Shown: positions 5,629 through 56,444 of the stretch, piece by piece | Position numbering within the stretch: position 1 is the first letter of the stretch | How the letters are laid out: each line of letters opens with the position of its first letter | Assembly (NCBI RefSeq): GCF_947623445.1 | Contig: NC_135248.1 | Coordinates: forward strand, 15,571,820 to 15,635,819 | Length of the DNA stretch: 64,000 bases | Direction of reading: 5' to 3' | Source: Clavelina lepadiformis | Lineage: Eukaryota > Chordata > Ascidiacea > Aplousobranchia > Clavelinidae | The notes under the pieces: model-generated | The model's input: only the letters and a program-made list of their open reading frames with translations | Database searches by the model: none | Told to the model about the DNA's origin: nothing | Position numbers and translations under genes: made by a program

Positions 5629-8037
5629 CAGTGGCGTAGCAGCCAACTGGCGATTCTGGCTCTGCGCCAGGGTCGGCAGGCTGCAAGGGGGCGGCAAAAT
5701 GAGGCTGCACAGTGGACACAGCACGAGAATTTTAAAAAAAATGGAGCGGTAAACAAACTATTTTGTTACAATTTGGTCCCGCTGACCAAGAAAACTGTGA
5801 AAAGTGAACCAGTCCTGGGCATTTAAACGTTTAATTGTAAACTTTTAAGTTGTTATTGATTGTAAACGTTTAAATGACAGGTTGTGGTTAAATTTATACA
5901 AGTGTTAATTTAGACTCGAAAATGAAACGTGTCAAAGAGAGTGGAGCTTTTTTTAAAAAGAAGAAGAAAGCAAGAGAAGCAGAATTACAAAAGCACAAGG
6001 GAGCTATGCTAAAATTTGTAACCTCTTCTGGTTCAAATGATTCTTTCATATTACCGGAGAACGATTCAAATGAAAACCCAGACAATAACGCTGAGCTCTA
6101 GAGAGATACTGAAAATATCAGCTTATCAGCAGAAACGCAAGAAACAGGATCTGAACAATGAAATCAATTATGCATTGCCAGTTATAGATGGAGACGAAGG
6201 TGAAAATAACGACGAAGCAGTTGCAGTAGTCAACAATTTGCCCAATGATGTGGCCTCTTGGCCTGAAGTTATAGATCACCATTTATATGGATGAAGAGCG
6301 AAAAAAGTGGAAAGCAATTTTAGAAAGCGTTGTGGATGTCATATTGTTTCTAAGTAAGCAAAACCTTCCTTTTCGAGGACATCGTGAAGCTTTTGAATTC
6401 AACAACCAAGGGAATTTTTTAGAGACCGTGAAGTTTCTGGAAAAATATAGTCCCGTAATCATCAAATACCTTTCTGATATTCGTATTTCTACGAAGATGA
6501 CAACTACTTATCTTTCTCCCACTAACTTATTCAAAATGAGCTTATTTTGCTTCTCAGTAAAAAAGTCAAAAACATCGTTCTTGAAGAGGTGCGCGAAGCT
6601 AAATATTTTGCGATTATGTGCGATAGTACTCCGGACGTATCACATACTGATCAAATGACTCTTATAGTCAGATATGTAACAATCAAAAACAGTATTGCCC
6701 AACTGAAGGAATCGTTTTTGAATTTCTTTCCGTTGAGCGGAAAAACGGCAGCTGAAATTTCTCAATCTATTCTAGATGAACTTGAACTAAACAACTTAGA
6801 TGTGATGATGTGTAGGGGAAAAGGCTACGACAACGCATCTACTATGTCGGGAGCTCATACTGGAGTTCAGCAAAAAATCAAAAACATAAATCCAAAAGCA
6901 CTACTCGTACCGTGTGGAAATCACACACTGAATCTTGCAGGTGTTCATGCCGTCGGATCGTTGCATTTAATCGACAGATTTTCGCTGTTTTACAAAGTAT
7001 GTTTTTTTTTTGCTGCCTCTACTCATAGATGGGATGTCCTTCTAAAGCATGCGCCAATCGCGCTGAAGCGAGTGATTGATACGCGATGGAGCGCACATCA
7101 CGGCCCTTCACGCAGGTTTTGACGAGTTTATGGATGCTCTAGAGTCTAGAGGAACTATGTAATCCAAACGAAAATCTTAATACACGAGGTGACGCTCATA
7201 GTATTCTAGAAGCGGTTCAGAATTTTTCTTTCTTTTTCTTCTTATGTTTTTGGAAAGTAATCCTGCGAGAGTCTCATCATACTTAAACTTACTTGCAGCA
7301 AAAGGATTGCTGTTAGCGCAATGCTCTAACAAGATGAAAGCGTTTGTCAACTTTTTAGTGGAAGAACGAGATAATCTGGTTAAAGGTTCTGTGGATGCAG
7401 CGATCAAAAAATGCACAGAGCTAGAGATTCCAGTTGAAGATCGGAGAGTTCGCAGAAAAAAGAGAATGCCTGGCGAACACGCAGAAGATGCTGGCCTTAG
7501 TGTTTTTGGAGAAGTAAGACGATGCATGTTTCAAGCATTGGACAGATTTAAACTTGAAGCTGAAACTAGGTTTACCGGCATACACCACTTGAAATATATG
7601 TTTGGATTTTTGAATCCTCACGCGCTGCTGCAAAGCGAAAGTCACAATGGATTCACCAACGCTTTTAGAAGCACTTATGACGACGAGGTGGACTTTTTGG
7701 AGCTAGCTGTGGAAATTGACAGATTTAAGAGGCTGGTGCGAAGCAGTGAAACCACGTTTGATCGTAATGCAACAGCGTTTGATGTTTTACAGTGGTTAGC
7801 TAAATCACACCTACTTGATTCAACAAGTACGTAGGCCTACCATATTTATGCTTGTGTCTGAAACTTTATCTTACCATTGGTGTTTCAATTGCGAGTTGTG
7901 AGAGGAGTTTCTCAAAGCTCAAAATGATAAAGTCCTATTTACGTTCTACCATGAATGATGATCGGCTATCAGCTCTATCGATTCTTTCTATAGAAAGACA
8001 TTATACGTTCAAAAACTTGATTTTGAAGATATTGTAA
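5629..8037 (+). mobile_element. Decayed autonomous hAT transposon (DUF4371 type)
   Basis: The left end begins CAGTGGCGTAGC, the classic terminus of Tip100/ZMYM-like hAT elements. The + strand then carries pieces of one transposase in several frames. An N-terminal lysine-rich start lies at 5922 (MKRVKESGAFFKKKKK). A DUF4371-type segment at 6547-7122 includes VREAKYFAIMCDSTPDVSHT and LVPCGNHTLNL. A middle piece lies at 7244-7834. The C-terminal hAT dimerisation segment lies at 7852-8037 (SIASCERSFSKLKMIKSYLR). Stops and frameshifts separate the pieces, for example stops in the 6100-6300 area, so it cannot make transposase. I found no matching right end (GCTACGCCACTG) downstream. Confidence 0.85.
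6547..7122 (+). pseudogene. hAT transposase fragment, DUF4371 region
   Basis: This is the longest open piece (about 190 aa) of the hAT transposase. It carries the acidic 'CDSTPDVSHTDQM' motif typical of the RNase-H-like catalytic core of this family, then 'GYDNASTMSG' and 'PCGNHTLNL'. It breaks near a poly-T run (7002-7010) and a diverged stretch, and the chain resumes in other frames at 7244 and 7852. It does not look like a domesticated gene, since its own flanks are decayed. Confidence 0.8.
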
Positions 8038-21535: not shown

Positions 21536-24500
21536 ATGTCTCTGTGGGCAAAAGTTCGAGAGCTTGAGGGTGATTCTTTGAGGCAAATCCAGAATTTGTA
21601 TGGACCGCACTTTCCTATTGAATTCCGACATTACTTTGCCGACATCATAGAAAGACAAAACTGGTGAGTGCTCTGTGTTTGAACTTCAGCTATATTATGT
21701 GCGCTTTCATATATTTGTCACAACCTTCAACCTTCCACAATTAAATTGTCATCAGTTTAAATCAATATCGATCATGTCCCATTTGTTTTATGAACTTATG
21801 CTTGCTTAGGGACCAGTTGGACCCCGATAATATCCCTAATGATGAGCCCCACGCTAAGTTCATCCTCGAAACATTCCTGGGTGAGATCCAGAGGCAATGT
21901 GACCAACTCACAGAAGGAAAAGATTTCCTGCAACGTCTCCACTTCAGTGAAATTGCCACGCACTTCAAAGTTAGAATTATTCATATACTTCATATTCCTG
22001 GTAATTAGTCATTAGTTCATATTCCTGGTAATTAGTCATTAGTTCATATTCCTGGTAATTAAGAGCAGTTGCATGGTTCTTGTCATTGCGAGAACAACAT
22101 GATTGTTTGTGTCACTTATAAATTTGAGAGACATTTCCCAACTGATATCGTCCACAGAACGTTTACGGGCCCGCACCTTTAGAGCTGGTCCGTACTGTGA
22201 AGAAAATCCTTTCTTTTGAAACCAGACTTGTTCAAAATGCAAACTCTGTGAGTCATTTTCTATTGTTGCATGCAAATCAATCGCAACGTATCAGTTTAAT
22301 GTGATGTCTATGCAGATGGTGGATGGAGGCATGCAAGTGAGGAACAACCAACAGTCGGAGAAGACGATGCACATTAACCGAGAGCTGGAGAGACTCGCCG
22401 CCATGACCAGGAACACTGAGAACGACCTGAGGAAGCTGCAGTCAAAGCAGGAATATTTCGTCATAAACTACCAGGACAGCCTGAAAATTTCATGTTTGTT
22501 CCACTTTTTGTCATTTTCAATAGTTCATTAACTGCATTTTATTTAACACTTTTCACCCGGGTTCGAAACTAAGACTGCTCCACAATTTGTGAAAACAAAA
22601 ATTTCAATTAACGTCGATGAAAACAATGAGAACTTGCTGTTTTGTCACCAGCTGACCTGCAACAGATCCAACAGTTGGCTCCGACAGACCAGACCAGGAT
22701 ACAGCTTGAACCTCAACTCACTCGAAAGCAGCAGGAAATCGACAAACTGCTCCGAGCCGAAGCCCAAAAACTCCAACAACTTCGTTCGGTTCGTATTCGT
22801 GATCGATCATGTGACCAGCATATAATGTGGGGCAAACACATAAGTGCAATCTCACATAATGTTGCATCACAATAAGCTTAGATATGATCTCAAGCTGGTG
22901 TGTCACAATTTGTTCATATAATGACAGAAGGGAATTGTGACTAGTTACGAAGGGTGCGGTGTTACAGGGTCTTGCAACGAGACATGAAGAAACATTTTCA
23001 CACATTACCCAGCTTCAAGGTCAGATATTAGACGAGGAATTACTCAAGTGGAAGAGGTCCCAAGCACTTGCTTACAACGGCGTTCAACATGAAAACAACC
23101 TTGACCAGTTGCAGCGGTGGTAGGTCGTCCAAGTGCTTGACGGAGCTTCATTGAGGTTTATTCGTCTTCTTTGAATCTATCGTTGTTGCAGGTGCGAGCA
23201 GTTGGCCGAGATAATTTGGCAGAATCGTCAGCAGATTAAGAGAGTGGAGATGCAACGTCAGCAACTTCCCATCAACAATTCAGGACATGACAAGCTCCCT
23301 GAGCTTAATTCCACCATCACCGCACTTCTATCCACGCTCGTCACCAAGTACAACCACTTCTAATATGCTGCTGCTATTTTAAGCTTCCACGACTCATGCA
23401 TTTTATATCTTTTCTTTCAGCACCTTCATTATAGAAAAGCAGCCTCCTCAGGTTCTCAAGACACAGACCCGATTCGGCGCAACGATCCGCTTGCTGGTCG
23501 GCGGGAAGCTCAACGTGCACATGAACCCACCAACCGTGAAAGCGAGCATCATCAGCGAGAACCAAGCTAAAGCTCTCCTGAAGAATGACTCCAGCAGAAG
23601 GTAGGACGTCTGCAGCTTGTGATAACCCACGTCGAATAACTTTATTACATGAAACATGTCCACCACTGACACAACGTTCTGTATTATACGAGTGATAGTA
23701 TGTTGGTCCGCAGTATCAGCGAGATGAGCGGAGAGATCTTGAACCCGGAGAGCGTGATGGAGTACCATCCTCAATCCGGCATCCTCAGCGTCAATTTCAG
23801 GAACATGGTGAGTGCTGCGTCGTCAATAGCAACCGACTCTATGTGACTCCGACCTGTGCTCTGCAGTCACTTCGTCGAATAAAAAGATCGGACAAGCGCG
23901 GGGCCGAGTCGGTGACTGAGGAGAAATTCACGATTCTATTCCAGTCCAGGTTCAGTGTTGGGGGCAACGAGTTGGTCTTCCAAGTTCGGGTGAGACGTCT
24001 GCTATCTACGACGTAGATCATCTGTTTATGCTGCGGTTTGCTCTTGTAATATCGTGTATTGAATCTTGTTTGTGTGAGAGCACTCCAACATGTAACCATA
24101 CTACGAGCAGTTGTAAGCAGCTCGCGTAAAAGCAGCCATAAGTAGGTCATCGAATCCCTGATAATTGTTTGTGGCTGTAGACCCTTTCACTGCCGGTCGT
24201 GGTCATAGTTCACGGGAACCAGGAAGCCAACGCAGCCGCCAGCATTTTGTGGGATAACGCATTTGCAGAGCAGGTACCTCTAACTTTGCCTTTGTAAACA
24301 CTTCTCTTATTTGCAGCCCCATGCTTGCTCACTACCAGTTGTGGTGATAGTTAACGTCAGCCAGGAATGTAACGCTAGAGGCACAGTGCTATGGGACAAT
24401 GCATTCTCACACCAGGTACCATGGTATGGGTCGTGCCGTGTTCCAATCAACCCCACAAAATCCTTTCACTTGTTTTAATTCTCAAGAATAATTTGACATT

Positions 24501-27079
24501 TCTAATCATCAATTTTGATTTCATCTGGGAGATGAAAGAAATTTAATTCAAGCTGTAAATGAAGCTTCAGCTTACTCGCTGAATTTTGTCAGTAGCAGCA
24601 TGTCTTCATTGAAATCTGATAATAATTAACGCTAGGCATAAGTGTACCACCAGTGTCATATTGATTTAAAATTAAGTATCCTGATCACGTTGAAGTTACA
24701 GCACCAGTTTGTAAGTTATCTTAGAACCGTTCCGCTTGAAGCATGACCAACCAAATATTTCTCAATTTGAAATTTCCAAATATACTGTTGTGGTTATGTA
24801 ATAATGCATGATAATTGCATTAATGACGTCACACTATTGACCACTAAACTTATGTAAGATTCAAAATCAACTTGTTTTAGTTTTGTGTTGTATAATTGTC
24901 TGTTATAAATGGCTTTATGATGTGACAATGCTAATAGCGAATGCTTGCTTAGATTTTGTCACTTGGCAAATAATGATTAGACCAGAATTTCGCATTTGTT
25001 GACGTTAAACCATTTCTTACGTCACAATAGCCAATTAATGTGGTCGCGAGTGACAATTAGTTTTTAATTTACGTGACAGCGTAGAAGTCATTGCGCTTAA
25101 TTGCATGTTTTGTAGCCACTGTGTCGACTCTATTGTTAATGTTTGATAATAATTATGTAAAACTATGTCTGCGTCATTTTGCAACCTTTGTCCTCAAATG
25201 ACCTGAGTGACGTAGTTGCTTTCAACTGTGGACAGGGGCGCATTCCGTTTCAAATCCCGGACAAGGTGCCGTGGTGCAAGCTGATTGAGACGTTGGATTA
25301 TAAATGGAAGCACGAGTGCCACAGCCCCCGTGGCTTGTCCCCGCAAGCCAAACAGTATCTCGCCTATAAAGTATTCCGTAAGTTTTCATCATATTTCTGC
25401 GCATGCGCTGATTCCTAACAAGGTAATTTGCAGGCCACAACGTACCAAGTAACTCTGACAAACACATATCGTGGGCCCAGTTCAACCGGGAGCCGCTGCC
25501 GAACCGCAACTTCACTTTCTGGCAGTGGTTCAACGGCGTCATGGAGCTCACCAAGAGCAAGCATCTGCAGCAGCATTGGAACGACGGGTAGTTGTCCTCT
25601 GTATGCTTGAAGTCATCAAGAAATGTTAACTCCAATAGATAATGATAGGTCAATAATTAAGCTTATTACGTCATAACCCTATTTAGAAAATGAAATTTGT
25701 CACAGAGCAATCATAGGCTTCATCGGGAAAGCTGAGTCTCAAGAGAAACTTCTCTCCAAGTCGCCGGCAACTTTCCTGCTCCGATACTCTGACTCTGAAA
25801 TTGCCGGACTCACCATCGCCTGGGTAGCTGAGTCCGACAAAGGTGATTAAGTGAATTGTTTAGTCCTTTGTTGTTGTACCAGACACTGCTCGCGGGTTCC
25901 AAGTCAATTATAGAATCGACTTGTCCACGTATGAGATTTGTCGCGCCTCAGATGCCAAAGCGCACCGACCATAGGAACCGTACTGGCGTGTTTTGAAATG
26001 CTGGCGCAACGCGAAATATGCCTTTTGTGTTTATCTGCTCAAACCGGAAATGTTTATTCCTGCAATATTTCAATCATATGACGTAATTTCCTCAATCTCA
26101 GCCTTAGTTGAGTTTATTTTTGTGACGCAGGGATCCTGAAAGTGTGGAATCTTCAGCCACAGACGCTGCGGGATTACGGGATAAGGTCTCTGGCAGACCG
26201 CATCAAGGACCTGGACCAGTTGATGTATATTTGCAAGGTGGATGACAGCACACAAGTCAAGGACGAGGTGTTCGGCCAGTACTACAACAAGCCCATGAGC
26301 GGATCACGTGAGTGCTATCTCCGTTCAATTGTCCAATGAGAGAACGCTGCTAAAATTTCTTCTTCCGCAGCTCAACCTGATGGATACGTCAGAGCTGAGA
26401 TCAAGCAGACCGTCAACATTCCCCACCCGTGAGTGCTTGTTCGTCATAATTATATTTGTCGTGCAATTATCCCCGAACACAACTTGTAGCCATTCTTTGA
26501 CCTGCCTCCCTTCAAATGACGTCATCGTTCTTGAAACACACATTTTACATAATTTCTTGCGCTTCTGAAAACAATTTATCTAAGTTGCAACGTTTTGGGG
26601 TTATTCAATGATAAATGTTTCGAAAATTCAATTCCCCACAAACAACTCAGGAATATTCCAAGAATCTTTACAAGTTGAAAGATTCAAACAAGTCGATGCT
26701 TAGTCCGTGTAAGCGCTTTAAATTTTTGCACTCACCTCAGGCACATGAGTCTTATGGGCGAGCACAGTGCACCTGGCACCCCCGCCAGCAGCTACGAGTC
26801 CCAACTTTCGATGCACAGCCCAACACCGGTCGGGCATCACGCTGGCTTGCAGTATGACATGTAAGTAGCCTGCTGTAGAGCACCCTTCTTGGTGTTTCTT
26901 CACTCGTCATAATCGACTTCTCCTTGTTCTTGCCGAACAGGCCTGACATGGGGTCAAGTGTCAACAACTACCACCCGCCACAAGATGTCGCTGGAGGCGG
27001 TATGGAGTACGACGAGAGCCTGGACTGCTTCGCTCCCTGCAACATCGACGTCAACGAATTGCTGAGCCGCCAGCTGTGA
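21536..27079 (+). CDS. STAT: STAT transcription factor, STAT5/6-like
   Basis: This is a cytokine/JAK-activated transcription factor; family members dimerise through SH2-phosphotyrosine contacts and enter the nucleus. Eighteen in-frame coding exons: 21536-21663, 21810-21969, 22158-22247, 22316-22493, 22652-22788, 22968-23119, 23192-23347, 23421-23600, 23714-23807, 23867-23989, 24181-24273, 25236-25377, 25434-25587, 25706-25842, 26131-26307, 26371-26428, 26741-26860, 26941-27079. They give 2418 nt, 805 aa, close to STAT5 (about 790). The N-terminal domain starts [20 protein letters not shown], like STAT5. A coiled coil follows (about 130-330), then the DNA-binding domain ([33 protein letters not shown]), the linker, and SH2 with FLLRYSDSE (Arg622 binds phosphotyrosine; vertebrate STAT5 has Phe where Tyr623 is). 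The activating tyrosine is Tyr706 in [11 protein letters not shown]. The tail is acidic ([10 protein letters not shown] then NELL), like the STAT5 activation helix. The first ATG follows an acceptor at 21493, so the 5' UTR is spliced. A duplicate of exon 11 is listed separately. Confidence 0.95.
21991..22062. repeat. 27-bp tandem repeat in a STAT intron
   Basis: About 2.7 copies of a unit starting CATATTCCTGGTAATTAGTC (21991-22017, 22018-22044, 22045-22062). It lies in the intron after the second coding exon. Confidence 0.9.
24317..24415 (+). CDS. STAT: Duplicate of STAT exon 11, likely alternative exon
   Basis: This 99-nt open segment lies between a TTATTTGCAG acceptor and a CAG|GTACC donor and encodes 33 aa in phase 0 at both ends. 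It parallels the preceding exon (24181-24273, 31 aa). That exon has [20 protein letters not shown] then LWDNAFAEQ. This one has [20 protein letters not shown] then LWDNAFSHQ. The first copy is closer to vertebrate STAT5 ([13 protein letters not shown]...LWDNAFAE), so the second is the derived one. The intron between them is 43 nt, very short, which could hinder joining of both copies. Swapping it in gives an 807-aa protein with an altered end of the DNA-binding domain. It has no stop and keeps all invariant family residues, so it looks functional. Confidence 0.8.
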
Positions 27080-29544
27080 GCCAACGATACCTGCACTGCG
27101 TTATCGCTTGTGCGGTTGAACGAGTCGCAGCCTCCATTTTACGTACTACGTGCTTGGATCTTTTAATTCTAGCAATCATGAACGAAAGGTTAATTGAGTT
27201 CACCTTGTTATCATCGTGTTTATTCGTATCTTGTGAATATTTTATTGTGACTTGGGGTCGTTGTATTTGCCTTGACTTATAATTTCACGAGTTGTCCGGC
27301 TATAACTAACATCGCAGCACTTCGCCCATGACGGTACCTTTGTTGCAGCGGTACAACAACTCACTATATGCAGTTTTCTATGCTTTATCGGTCGCAGTAT
27401 GTGCAAAGTGGTCCGCAACAACATAGTTCATGTTTTAGCATTTTAAAATTAGCATCTTTGCAATATCTTCTTGACGTACTAATCTTGTTGCCATTATCTT
27501 TTAAAGCCTTATTGCGGTTAAATGCAAAAATATGATCAATTTTCAATCACGTTTGATGTCTATGCAGCTGCCCAACCTTATCGACGATAGATGGTCAAGA
27601 AAATAAGGCTGGCAAGTCAATTGGCGTGGCTTGTTGAAGATTGCTGGCACGCGCATGCGCACTGTCTACCCGGGAACATGAATTGGCTCAATAGTATTCA
27701 TATCTCACTCCAGGACATCGTGTTTAAACGTAGTCCAGCGTATAACAGCGCGGCCAAATGCTTTGCAACTTTCTATTATATCGTTCATTTTTCCCCGATA
27801 ACTGCGCGGACGGGAAAGTATGGCGCTAACTTCGTTGTAGAATGGTCAAACAATGAACGGATGGGGCAAGCGGCAAAGTTGTCAGGGCTTAAACATGCAA
27901 TGTGTAACTTACAGTGGTGCTACAACATGGAAGGCTGCAGCATAAATCGAAGGAACGTCGAGGCCATGATTAGGAGATGTCATTATCCACGTTGCATGGT
28001 GAAAATAAAAACACGCCATCCCAGGGATAAAATCCCATTTTTGTGGCACGGGCATGACAAGAAAAGTTTTCCGCACAGCGGGGGCGCGGCGTGACAAGAA
28101 AAATTTCTAGAAATGTATCACTTGTGGAAATACTTAATTTACACTAAATTCACTTCCTTTAGTTTTACAATTATGATGTATACAGGAAACCAGATGTTTT
28201 TGCTACAAACCTGTCAAAATCCGATCAGTTTACGACGTATAGTTTTCGAGTAATTAACGATTGAAAATGTGTGTGCGGAGTCGGCCACACCTAGTGAAAA
28301 TGGCAAAGTCACGAGCCCGGTATGGATAGGGTTAAGAAGTTGAACTTCTCTTCATCAAACGATAGGATCCAGGCAGGCTATAGGACGACGATATACGAAT
28401 AGAGTTAATTAGACCTTCATCCTCCGCGTGGCACATTTACACCGGTGTGCAACTCACAAACCGCCTTTCCCATTTGTGACTTGCACAAAGACAGACTGAG
28501 TAAATCTCACATATATACATATAAATAGACAAATTGTACATTCTAACTTATAATTAAAAGATGCAGCACAATGCTACACGGACCAGTAGCAATAAATTAC
28601 CTTGGTGGCTCTCCTTCATTGCCATCGCAGATGAACAATGTCCAACTTTATCGCAAGTAGTGACAAAGAAATCAACTTAAGAATTTATAGCAATTAGCGT
28701 TCAGAAGTTAATACGCAGATATACTTATGTGAATTTTTGTGATGTAATAATATGTCGATTGTCCAAGCGCTTTTCGACTTTTGAGCGCGTGACTTGTACA
28801 TGTTGAACTCGTCATAGTGTAATACGCTTTTGTTTGTCAAACAATGAAGGCATCGTGCGATGTTGATATCAGATGACTGGGACAAGGTTGTACAAGAGCA
28901 AATTGAATTAATACGATTGCTTTGTAAGTAATCAGGCTTTATGACCCACAACAGTCCAATATTATAAACTTTGGCTGCTAAGAAATATTGGATCGGGCTT
29001 CATTATAACTTGGCATTATATGAAAGAAGATACGACATATTTGACATCAGCCTAACAGGTAAAACATTAAGTAGCAAATATCTTCAATTTCTCAGCGACG
29101 ATCTAACATCGATTCCAGTTATCTTTGGAATAGGAAAAAGTTATTTTGCTGTTGTTTTGTTCAGTTGAAGAAAGAAATTAATCGTTTAGCTCTTACAGCT
29201 GACAGACACGATATTTTTCCTGATGCTGCCGATATATTGAGGCACAAATAGAAACCGGTTCAAAGAAGTCAGCATTAAGTCGCAGTTGGTGTCGGTTTTT
29301 GTTTGTAAGGAAATACCAGAAAAAGTGCTCTTGCTGTCATCATGTTATATTTTACAAATAAGACTATTTTCGTTTAGGCCCTGAACCCTAAACTTTAGGG
29401 TCCCTGTTAGATTGATTATGAAAGTATACGAGTGAAGGTTACTGGTTAGCAAAACGGTCGCCAAATCCAACGGTCAGCACCACAACGAAGTTTTAAAGTG
29501 ATTCATTTTCTTCTCAGGACAACGACGAAAACCGAAATAGAGTC
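27080..29544. other. STAT 3' flank and intergenic DNA
   Basis: No canonical AATAAA close after the STAT stop was found. The only long open frame is the 167-codon one at 27591-28094 (listed separately). The remainder is AT-rich and without exon-like signals. Confidence 0.4.
27591..28094 (+). CDS. Unrecognised 167-codon open frame
   Basis: The frame is ATG-initiated (MVKKIRLASQLAWLVEDCWH at the start) and ends TGA, lying about 0.5 kb after the STAT stop. I recognise no domain. It is rich in Cys, His, Trp and Arg with no periodicity, hydrophobic helix or signal peptide. No splice context or poly(A) signal supports it, although its length is above what chance usually gives in AT-rich DNA. It could be chance, part of the STAT 3' UTR, or an orphan gene. 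Confidence 0.15.
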   Translation: MVKKIRLASQLAWLVEDCWHAHAHCLPGNMNWLNSIHISLQDIVFKRSPAYNSAAKCFATFYYIVHFSPITARTGKYGANFVVEWSNNERMGQAAKLSGLKHAMCNLQWCYNMEGCSINRRNVEAMIRRCHYPRCMVKIKTRHPRDKIPFLWHGHDKKSFPHSGGAA

Positions 29545-52437: not shown

Positions 52438-53691
52438 TTACGTAGGAAATTTCTTTTCGGTTATTTTTTCGTAAAGTGACGTAACATCGTCCATGGCTGT
52501 CTCCCAGGTCATTGTGGCGTCATAAGATTTGGAAATAAATATCCTGCTTTTCTTGTCACCCTCTAGCGGAACGCAGTAATCATGAACCTTTGTCATTTTG
52601 GCGGTGATTTGACCCAGAAGGTCAAGCCCCGGCTTTAAAGCTTCGTCCGGGTTTGAACTTTGAACTATGGCGGACACGATGGCCACATACATCCCCGCAG
52701 GCGATACTTTATGCTTCGAACCAACCACGCTGACGTAGATATCGTCACGTTGTTCTGACGTAGCTGGCGGTACAACAACGTAATGGGAGTGTGAGGTCGT
52801 GGCCCCGGGGGTAGGGTGGTTTAGAACGCAGAAAGCGCGAGCAATCTTAGCGGTTGATTTCACCATATCAGGAAAGTAACTGGGTTCGGCGATGATCGTA
52901 GGTGCGCCTGCAGTGACGCCAGAGGCGGAGACATAAACGAGACCATCTCGTTTCTTGACCCAGTCGAGAGGCCGATTGAGCATAGAGCGCCCCCCTGCGC
53001 TCTTAATTACCTTCTGCAAGCTCTGAATCAGCTCTCCGAGTCCGAAAAGCGGGAAATGGAGCGCTGTAGAGCGGTGGGGAGTCGGCACATCACAGAATCT
53101 CCGAACTTGGTCCAGCATCGCTTCGCTACTTTTGTAGCCGCCGGTGAACACGTGGTCAATCATGAGTTTGCAACTCGAACCCAGCTTGTAGAGCTCAAAC
53201 ACGCCATCAGGCGATGGTAGATGACGTTGTTTGTTCTCACTAAAGCGGCGATTTCGCGCAAATTCCAAAAATTGATGAAAACTTTCCTTTTCTGAGGTTG
53301 GTATGAAGTTGCACGCCATTACCTGTTGTGCAGAAATCGGAACTTTAATAAGACTGCCGCTAAATGTCAGAAAAACATCGTGCAAGGGTTCTGTGTCAAT
53401 TTTCACCCCGATGTATTCCAAGAGTGACACCATGCGGTCTTTTCCGACAAAGAATTTGGTCACCAGGTCAACATTCCAAAATCCTTTGTGCTTAGCATTG
53501 AGTTTTGTTTGAAAAGCGGCTTCAAGTTCCTCCAAACAACTGATGCAGCCATTTGCTCCTCCGCTGAATCGTTCACGATCAAGCTGTAAAACCTTTTTTC
53601 CTTCTTTGGCCAAAATCCCCCCCAAAATACATTCCGTGAAACCTGTTCCCAAAATAATGACGTCATACTTCTCAGCCGTGTCCATTTTCAA
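52438..53691 (-). CDS. Intronless divergent Rab GDP-dissociation inhibitor
   Basis: Rab GDI extracts prenylated, GDP-bound Rab GTPases from membranes and keeps them soluble for recycling. This single open frame of 417 codons has two in-frame ATGs at the start (MKMDTAEKYD); the second aligns with the usual GDI start. Residues 8-25 give the dinucleotide-fold motif YDVIILGTGFTECILGG (human YDVIVLGTGLTECILSG). Later matches are FWNVDLVTKFFVGKDRMVSL, LFGLGELIQ, SMLNRPLDWV, AEPSYFPDMV, IARAFCVLNHP and SYDATMTWE. It is about 30 residues shorter than vertebrate GDI at the C-terminus. Some Rab-binding-platform residues differ: YGGESSSITPLEEL is here SGGANGCISCLEEL. All neighbouring genes are rich in introns and this one has none, which suggests a retrocopy that has stayed open under selection. 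REP/CHM is excluded by length. No minus-strand poly(A) signal was settled. Confidence 0.88.
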   Translation of the reverse strand: MKMDTAEKYDVIILGTGFTECILGGILAKEGKKVLQLDRERFSGGANGCISCLEELEAAFQTKLNAKHKGFWNVDLVTKFFVGKDRMVSLLEYIGVKIDTEPLHDVFLTFSGSLIKVPISAQQVMACNFIPTSEKESFHQFLEFARNRRFSENKQRHLPSPDGVFELYKLGSSCKLMIDHVFTGGYKSSEAMLDQVRRFCDVPTPHRSTALHFPLFGLGELIQSLQKVIKSAGGRSMLNRPLDWVKKRDGLVYVSASGVTAGAPTIIAEPSYFPDMVKSTAKIARAFCVLNHPTPGATTSHSHYVVVPPATSEQRDDIYVSVVGSKHKVSPAGMYVAIVSAIVQSSNPDEALKPGLDLLGQITAKMTKVHDYCVPLEGDKKSRIFISKSYDATMTWETAMDDVTSLYEKITEKKFPT

Positions 53692-56444
53692 TATTTTACA
53701 AGCAGCAGTATAATAAGTGAAAGCCTAAGTACCTGCCTAATACCAGATTTTCACCTTTCAAATTTTTAAACTTTAAACGTTCTTTGTAACCTATATCTTT
53801 GCCTTTCTCTGATAAAAAGGTTTTAGCCATGGCACCTTCTAAGCTGAACTAATGTAACCTGACCAAGAAATGGCCGTTTCCTCTCACAAAGTAGACATCT
53901 AAGTTTTCAACCCTGGTGTTGTGGACAGTGTGAATCTATTTGATAAACTTAACCACTTCTGCTATTGGAATTTATAACGAAGCGAGGCAATTACAAAATC
54001 AACCAGAATAGAAGCCGACAGATTTCATTGTGATCGACAAACAATGGGATGTGCGCCTTCTTGCTCTTGACATCCCGTCGGCCACGTTATTGCGCGGCAG
54101 ACCCAATGAACAATTTATGCAGCGTTGGTTGAATCGTCAACTGCCATGCACTTCCGCGACCTCCACCAATACAGCACGTCTGCTTAACACCCAGCTCCTG
54201 AAACGTAGGCTTTGCACTGGATTGGTTTTACGGCTCAAGCAGCTTTACTGGGTTGATTCGAGTCTGTCTGATGTCACATGATTTCAAATATGACGTCATA
54301 CCTGAGAGCATTACAGGAAATGGACAATTTGGCACAAAATGTCAAAATTATCTTGCTTCACGTTGTTTAAACCTTAGGTAGCTCGCAAATTATAAAACGA
54401 TAAAGGTTTCGATCTTGCACTTACCAGCTGCAGCAAGATGATTCTGGTTAAATCCTCTTTGCTATTGTAATGGATTTACTTATATGCAATTAACTATTCT
54501 TTAAAGTTTGATTTCCGCTTAATGCTTGTTATGTTTTCTTATATTCTTGTTTTGTGCATTTACAAGTAATGAAAGACCAAAATATATGTTCAAATAAAAA
54601 AAACTGTTGTTTCAAATTTGCTCAATTATAAGATGTTTATGTTAATGGCACTGTTGTGTCCATGGCGACCACACACACTGCAAAGTTGGTGGTTTGAATT
54701 GTAATTGTTTCACAAAATTTAGGTTTTTAACCAAAAGAGTTTTTTAAAAGTGTAGGCCTAGTATAGTTTGAGGCAACCAAGAAATTTTGCCTAAACCGAG
54801 AATGGCTGATCAGGTAATATTTACATAGCTGCAATACTAAACTATATAAGCCTAGGAAATGTTGAAAAATGAGAATTACAGAATGTTTGAAATTTTGATT
54901 TGTAGCTAGGCTAGTTTATGTCCATGATAACCGAGCTTAGACCTAGGCTATATTCGTGTTGGGAATTCTTGTTTTCTATCAAGTCGGTATACGTTTTATT
55001 TTGATCTATCGACAGTCGCCAACATACAGGCAGAGCTGTCACGGCGCTATCGGACTGCAAAGTAGGCTATAGGTACTCGTACTGCAGTTTTCGACGCAAA
55101 ATCGTGCCCCTACTGCAGCGCTGGGAAGTTTGTTTTCTGTGCACTGGATAAATGCACCAATAACAATATTGCTATTCGTTGGCACATTTATCTTGCGCAG
55201 TTAAAGCAAACTTTCCAGCTGGGTGTAAACGCCTAGAAAGGAATTTTCATATTTAGACGTTTGGTTAATTTCAAAAAGCTGCTTTTCCCTTTGAACGTAC
55301 AGTATAGTGTGATTCTGTGCTAGAACTTGGTGTGCTGATTTGCCATGGTGGGCACTCTATGCCATTACATAATCCAAAAAAAGTGGGAGAACATCGCTTT
55401 GTTAAGTCACGATGATGATGACCTGACCCGAGTTAAAAGATGATTTAATGAAATCTTTCTTAAAGTAACATAATAAACCAAGTGACGCATTACCATGATT
55501 ACATTTCTTGGTCCTACATTATCTGATCCTACATTACCACGTTTCAAACAATTGGATAAATGTAATCAAACCATAACCTGCTCACTTTTGTTAAACAAGC
55601 CAGGAAAAAAAGTTTCCAGTTTTTGGAATAAAATTTTGAAACGTCGTATACAACAACTTTGCTATATTACTTGCTTATCATGTGATTTGCAAGGATCAAT
55701 CAAGCTTTTCTGATAAAAAAGGACAATTTAGCATTGTTGATTTTACCCTTGAGTTGGTACATTGGGCCCCCTTTTGTAGCAGGGCCCAATTTCAAAAAAT
55801 CGGCCTAAAGCCTGTCCACAAGTTTGATAATTATAGCAAGGTGGCACGGCCACAAAGCAGCCAACCTTGACACTGACATACCATTGGACAAATGTGGAAC
55901 TCGCACCAGATTCATTAACCTTTTTTATATTCACACTGATTTATGGTAAATAAACAAACAATTGAGTCTTTATTGCACACCATCACTACAAAAGATGTGT
56001 CTTTGCATGCACGATTTCAAGTCGAAAACTGTCGTACTATCCAGTGAACGTGCTGAACTTCTTCATCTTAACGCCCTTTTATAATAAACAAACCAGGCTG
56101 CTTGAACACAGAATTATGGCTTTAACGCAAAAATTTGTGTCTTTGCACGCCTGATTTCTTGTCGAAACGTAAAAAACGTTCTGTTCTCTTTTGTTCTGTT
56201 AGAATCAATTGAACTCAGTTAACCTCAACTTTTTAACGTTAAGAACCTCATTTGATATTTGGACCAATCACGCGCAAGAATAACATAATGGAAGTTTAGT
56301 GCAAACTAAAGTAATTGTGAAGATAAAGTTATTTGTTTATTTATCGGCCGTTAAACCTCTGACGATTGATTTATTTCATGATTTGTCAACCTCGCCTGGA
56401 GCGGTGGTTGTCATGATATTTACGTTTTGCTCCAATTGTTTCAG
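53692..56444. other. Intergenic and upstream part of CCDC96
   Basis: No supported gene. A perfect TGACGTCA lies at 54291, 600 bp upstream of the GDI start, and another at 53658 inside the GDI coding sequence. The region contains a dispersed repeat at 55970-56175. The first coding exon of CCDC96 should lie here or just before 56445 but was not identified. Confidence 0.4.
55970..56175. repeat. Dispersed repeat, relative of 46500-46760
   Basis: It contains two copies of the 'gtgtctttgca.gc' phrase (near 55997 and 56139), separated by a block with 'cttcatcttaacgcccttttataataaa'. The same words occur at 46500-46760. Confidence 0.6.

Follow-up and report, generated by a model that had tools for sequence, protein, structure and literature searches.

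Mutually exclusive use of adjacent exons can be enforced by distance alone. According to the OGDH report (PMC7969005), exons 4a and 4b of that gene are kept apart by branch points lying 25–41 nucleotides (nt) from the 5' splice site, where the steric threshold is about 50 nt; alpha-tropomyosin and alpha-actinin are cited there as examples of the same steric type. Among vertebrate STAT transcription factors, the residue that contacts DNA bases at one position is His in STAT5A, STAT5B and STAT6 and Asn in STAT1 and STAT3, and the two types reside in separate genes. Alternative exons affecting the DNA-contacting region of a transcription factor are known from FOXP1 (exons 18 and 18b), although there the domain is a forkhead and not that of a STAT. 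Here we describe a STAT gene from the ascidian Clavelina lepadiformis in which exon 11 is present as two adjacent copies, 11A and 11B. The gene lies in a stretch of 64,000 nt (the window) on contig 9 of the 209-Mb assembly (209.06 Mb, 95 scaffolds). We consider it fairly probable that 11A and 11B arose by an old tandem duplication and have been retained as mutually exclusive alternatives, so that splicing would yield STATs of the His type and of the Asn type from a single gene. No comparable STAT exon pair was met in the open-access literature, as far as titles and abstract openings go and with partial coverage.

The duplicated exon and its DNA-contact turn

A sequence-only reading of the window had proposed a tandem-duplicated STAT exon, and the duplication proved to be as described: both copies are open, in phase 0-0, encode 31 and 33 amino acids, and lie 43 nt apart. 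The two are thus neighbouring homologues that agree in phase and are alike in length (93 and 99 nt). The copies belong to a complete STAT5/6-type gene of 18 coding exons, located at 21536-27080 on the forward strand, for which the start codon was assumed. The features below come from a hand-made model with GT-AG junctions, except for the two codons, which were placed by ungapped alignment (to STAT5 and STAT6 in the case of His).

21536-21663, 21810-21969, 22158-22247, 22316-22493, 22652-22788 (+): coding exons 1-10, first part
22968-23119, 23192-23347, 23421-23600, 23714-23807, 23867-23989 (+): coding exons 1-10, continued
24181-24273 (+): exon 11A (His type), 31 amino acids, 93 nt
24211-24213 (+): CAC codon, His at the STAT6 H415 / STAT5 H471 position
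24274-24316 (+): 43-nt GT-AG spacer between 11A and 11B
24317-24415 (+): exon 11B (Asn type), 33 amino acids, 99 nt
24353-24355 (+): AAC codon, Asn at the STAT1 N460 position, in NVSQ
24416-25235 (+): 820-nt intron after 11B
25236-25377, 25434-25587, 25706-25842, 26131-26307 (+): coding exons 12-18 (linker, SH2, tail, stop), first part
26371-26428, 26741-26860, 26941-27080 (+): coding exons 12-18, continued

The alignment of 11A with 11B is free of gaps from SLPVVVIV to the exon end, and within it the contact turn reads HGNQ in 11A, as at H415 of STAT6, and NVSQ in 11B, as in STAT1 from N460 onward. Chain alignments place STAT6 H415, STAT5 H471 and STAT1 N460 at equivalent positions, and the Asn that marks the second type of contact is present in 11B at the N460 position. 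11A and 11B are therefore distinguished by the same residue that sets the two groups of vertebrate STATs apart. In STAT6, H415 hydrogen-bonds a guanine, and charge contacts to the phosphates are made by other residues, as stated in PMC11339341. The mutants H415N and N460H moved the preference between N4 and N3 spacing in opposite directions (commentary PMC5359187). Judged by alignment, the difference between 11A and 11B falls on the very position through which half-site spacing is known to be tuned, and this base-contact swap is a new element beyond the duplicated exon itself.

Whichever exon is chosen would complete the DNA-binding domain, 11A supplying a STAT5/6-type turn with His at the base contact and 11B a STAT1/3-type turn with Asn. 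Because the SH2 domain, the tyrosine tail and all else in the protein would be common to the isoforms, both should respond to the same receptors but read gamma-activated sequence (GAS) sites differently. By analogy with the published mutants, the Asn form should favour TTC-N3-GAA, and better tolerance of N4 is expected of the His form.

Several observations weigh against so direct a correspondence. Vertebrate STAT5 carries His, yet it does not use N4 sites (PMC5359187), so that His and Asn may not map simply onto N4 and N3 here. Outside NVSQ, the resemblance to STAT1 is no greater in 11B than in 11A, with 14 of 29 residues matching in both. The His-to-Asn replacement needs a change of only one base and is one of ten residue replacements, and a chance hit at that position is therefore not negligible. 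Moreover, 11B carries two extra residues (PHAC for TL). It is conceivable, although in our judgement rather unlikely, that the exons are exclusive and that the swap, with site spacing unaltered, modulates affinity, stability, cofactor contact or dominant-negative action, 11B for example weakening DNA binding. Such tuning would fit both the STAT5 precedent and the differences that reach beyond the contact residue, at 10 of the 29 aligned residues and at the 5' end; against it stands the replacement of HGN by NVS as a block, by STAT1 residues, with SLPVVVIV and LWDNAF retained.

Age of the duplication and probable selection on exon 11B

The two exons agree at 19 of 29 aligned amino acids and at 59 of 87 nucleotides, which is beyond chance; the alignment drops the first two of the 31 codons of 11A and the first four of the 33 codons of 11B, which could not be aligned. 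Fifteen of the 28 base differences fall at third codon positions, and different codons encode 9 of the 19 identical residues. The synonymous divergence (dS) was 1.70 and the nonsynonymous divergence (dN) 0.25 (Nei-Gojobori, 29 codons). Both SLPVVVIV and LWDNAF are kept in the two copies, and the additional 6 nt of 11B lie at its 5' end, where PHAC stands in place of TL. A DNA repeat finder did not list the 11A/11B pair. When the 29 aligned residues were compared with vertebrate STAT5B, 22 were identical in 11A and 20 in 11B; that 11B is nearly as close to STAT5B as 11A suggests that the duplication is old, perhaps common to other ascidians. An assembly artefact or a second haplotype was considered and rejected on account of the level of nucleotide difference (28 of 87) and of the single occurrence of the 361-bp stretch.

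Selection on 11B was assessed by a two-branch simulation in which both branches received equal mutation, the ancestor was 11A, and runs were matched to the observed silent differences. Up to 160 mutations were allowed per branch; with a neutral 11B, 11A could undergo silent change only, and 7130 of 30000 runs were accepted. With a neutral 11B, replacements as few as those observed occurred in 0.66% of the accepted runs, and few replacements together with no stop codon in 0.35%. When one omega was applied to both branches, a value of 0.5 was disfavoured (P 0.011) and 0.3 was borderline (P 0.086); 0.2 (P 0.24) and 0.1 (P 0.70) both fitted. An earlier simulation that loaded all change on 11B had given P 0.00035; it was judged too lenient, and the two-branch version was used. 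Because the neutral simulation fits at only P ~0.004, 11B is probably a selected exon on which coding selection has acted through most of its existence, a moderate result from a small sample and a simple model. As a predicted exon, 11B is very probably functional.

We also considered that 11B is a dead or near-dead duplicate that has stayed open by luck. The aligned region amounts to 29 codons only, and a neutral copy was free of stops in 33% of the accepted runs, so the open frame by itself is compatible with such a history; however, the replacements are too few for the synonymous divergence (P 0.0066, or 0.0035 with the lack of a stop included), the acceptor and donor are usable, the phase is kept and there is no frame-breaking indel. 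A dead copy is thus highly improbable.

Splice signals and the spacer between 11A and 11B

Splice sites were scored with a matrix derived from the gene's remaining 16 junctions, leaving one out at a time. The acceptor of 11A scored 7.9 bits, above 14 of the 16 others, and that of 11B 6.9 bits, above 11 of 16 (range of the others, −0.2 to 11.2). The donors, CAG/gtacct in 11A and CAG/gtacca in 11B, reached 5.3 and 3.8 bits (range of the others, −1.5 to 10.3), and 6% and 13%, respectively, of the GTs in 314 kb scored as well. The sequence-only reading had called both kinds of site good; this holds for the acceptors, and the donors are middling in 11A and weak in 11B.

The 43-nt spacer is the shortest of the gene's 18 introns, the other 17 ranging from 56 to 820 nt. 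By eye count it contains 29 pyrimidines and 5 G. Its sole match to the branch-site motif yUNAY is CTAAC, whose A at 24283 sits at +10 relative to the 11A donor and 33 nt ahead of the 11B acceptor. Of the gene's remaining introns that do not exceed 80 nt, five show a yUNAY candidate at +34 or beyond; in two others, of 59 and 63 nt, the examined stretch contains no match. In the mechanism that we propose, a transcript would take 11A or 11B, never both, as the 11A donor would be too near the 11B branch site (best branch A at +10) for the U1 and U2 small nuclear ribonucleoproteins (snRNPs) to engage jointly. The true branch site is predicted only, but given the length of the spacer any branch site within it sits below the steric limit of about 50 nt, and the joining of both exons is probably blocked sterically. 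The arrangement resembles that of OGDH 4a/4b in having adjacent exons, a short intron between them and a branch site less than about 50 nt from the upstream donor (PMC7969005). For OGDH, alpha-tropomyosin and alpha-actinin, exclusivity is shown in transcripts, whereas the Clavelina case concerns a STAT gene, a 43-nt spacer and a predicted branch site.

Other findings caution against taking exclusivity for granted. A 43-nt intron of human ESRP2 undergoes splicing (PMC4463651), and length alone is therefore no proof; the earlier suggestion that the short intron would hinder joint splicing agrees with the published steric limit and retains the force of an argument, not of a proof. A yUNAY is missing from the examined stretch in 4 of 18 introns, which makes the motif a poor predictor of branch sites. 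Among those of the gene, the 11A donor ranks as middling (above 6 of 16) and the 11B donor as weak (above 3 of 16). Finally, inclusion of 11A only, 11B only, both or neither leaves in each case one open frame with a single terminal stop, so that decay would spare double inclusion and the frame makes no demand for exclusivity.

These points bear on a further alternative, in which 11B acts as a regulated cassette exon and may be spliced on behind 11A, so that the protein contains a duplicated strand, or occurs in rare transcripts only, with no strict exclusivity. Double inclusion in frame, the middling to weak donors and the ability of human cells to splice 43-nt introns (PMC4463651) would all allow it. 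On the other hand, joint inclusion would presumably repeat a strand and the contact turn within a compact domain, and the spacer is shorter than the gene's other introns, with its only yUNAY at +10. It is also pyrimidine-rich (29 of 43, with 5 G), whereas PMC4463651 describes as G-rich 12 of the 15 ultra-short introns in human for which there was evidence of splicing. We regard a cassette exon of this kind as quite improbable and retain mutually exclusive use of 11A and 11B as the favoured explanation.

A profile of intron sizes, pairing strong donors with strong acceptors over 314 kb, gave no signal over a reversed control and is neutral on a length of 43 nt. The predicted RNA fold of 24160-24480 was ordinary (z −0.87; 19 of 100 shuffles were equally or more stable). 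The 820-nt intron that follows 11B yielded no convincing regulatory element; TGCATG occurs twice, at 24805 and 25102 (shuffling P 0.127, with six further motif sets inspected). We take these to be Rbfox-type motifs and did not use them as evidence. Positions 24241-24253 in exon 11A and 24452-24464 in the intron after 11B are complementary at 12 of 13 bases, which, by rough estimate, we judged to be at chance level in 1.2 kb.

STAT genes of Clavelina and the wider window

The protein is open with either exon, at 805 amino acids for the A form or 807 for the B form. In the 805-amino-acid protein, FLLRYSDSE is a putative SH2 motif and the C-terminal tail holds a putative tyrosine motif. The linker exons were also recovered by Pfam STAT_linker. 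The DNA-binding and linker stretch of the 11A form matched STAT5B (2.2e-51), STAT5A (5.6e-50) and STAT6 (1.4e-36), and more weakly STAT1 (~1e-6) and STAT3 (~1e-4); the ranking was unchanged with the 11B form (STAT5B 4.7e-45, STAT6 1.3e-31). By these similarities the gene is of the STAT5/6 class, of the statb type. Ciona has two STATs, stata and statb, of which statb is placed in the STAT5/6 sub-family (PMC3296744); the Clavelina gene is likewise a urochordate member of that sub-family.

Four loci with STAT exons emerged from protein searches of the genome: this gene, a locus on contig 6 and two on contig 1 about 10 kb apart. The latter three are diverged STAT genes, two in tandem on contig 1 at ~24.240-24.254 Mb and one on contig 6 at ~8.711 Mb. 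Each has one copy of the exon, and all three carry His (HGKQ, HGKQ and HVKQ); the exons are 93 nt long, with borders read by eye, which is the length of 11A. A tblastn search with the 11A form, over 30 and 20 kb around the paralog loci, found no second exon copy, nor did a whole-genome search with the 11B form, which gave one extra match on contig 7 (E 1.55). When the genome was queried with a STAT1-type sequence, no STAT was recovered and the only match lay on contig 2 (E 1.55); as the four known STAT loci escaped it as well, this query is insensitive. The absence of another Asn-type STAT is thus weakly tested, which weakens the case for a unique role of 11B: 11B is the only Asn-type exon detected, and a diverged STAT1-like gene could have escaped. 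The reach of Pfam was partial, STAT_alpha finding this gene only, STAT_linker also contig 6, and STAT_bind also contig 6 and one contig 1 locus. On these comparisons, this is the only gene of clear STAT5/6 identity found in C. lepadiformis. Pattern matches on viral and prokaryote contigs (2 and 28, respectively) included none that was confirmed, as expected for an animal gene.

Taken with the open frames, equal phases, usable splice sites, short spacer and selection on 11B, the single-copy paralogs favour the earlier proposal of a probable mutually exclusive pair; the exclusivity itself, the use of 11B in RNA and the altered DNA preference are inferred.

Elsewhere in the window, an uninterrupted frame of 428 amino acids at 52441-53724 (−) matches Pfam GDI (Rab GDP dissociation inhibitor; 5.2e-80), and its unbroken form may point to a retrocopy whose frame has remained open. 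Neighbouring frames at 6275-7831 (+), of which 6526-7119 matches Pfam DUF4371 (2.5e-8), resemble a hAT-type transposon. The frame at 3-362 (−) opens with a helix-turn-helix, which from its translation we take to resemble Tigger/CENP-B-type transposases.

The differences in spacing among STAT paralogs at near-identical sites have been understood from point mutants (PMC5359187). We suggest, tentatively and with some doubt, that one Clavelina STAT gene toggles by splicing between both base-contact residues that vertebrates split between STAT5/6 and the other STATs, shifting the preferred GAS spacing at an unchanged upstream signal, and that 11B may be the genome's only Asn-type exon, standing in for a lost or altered gene. 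If this is true, a natural gene would toggle the same residue by splicing while the remaining protein stays constant, an internal control for the spacing question, and the DNA specificity of a cytokine-pathway factor would be set by RNA processing.
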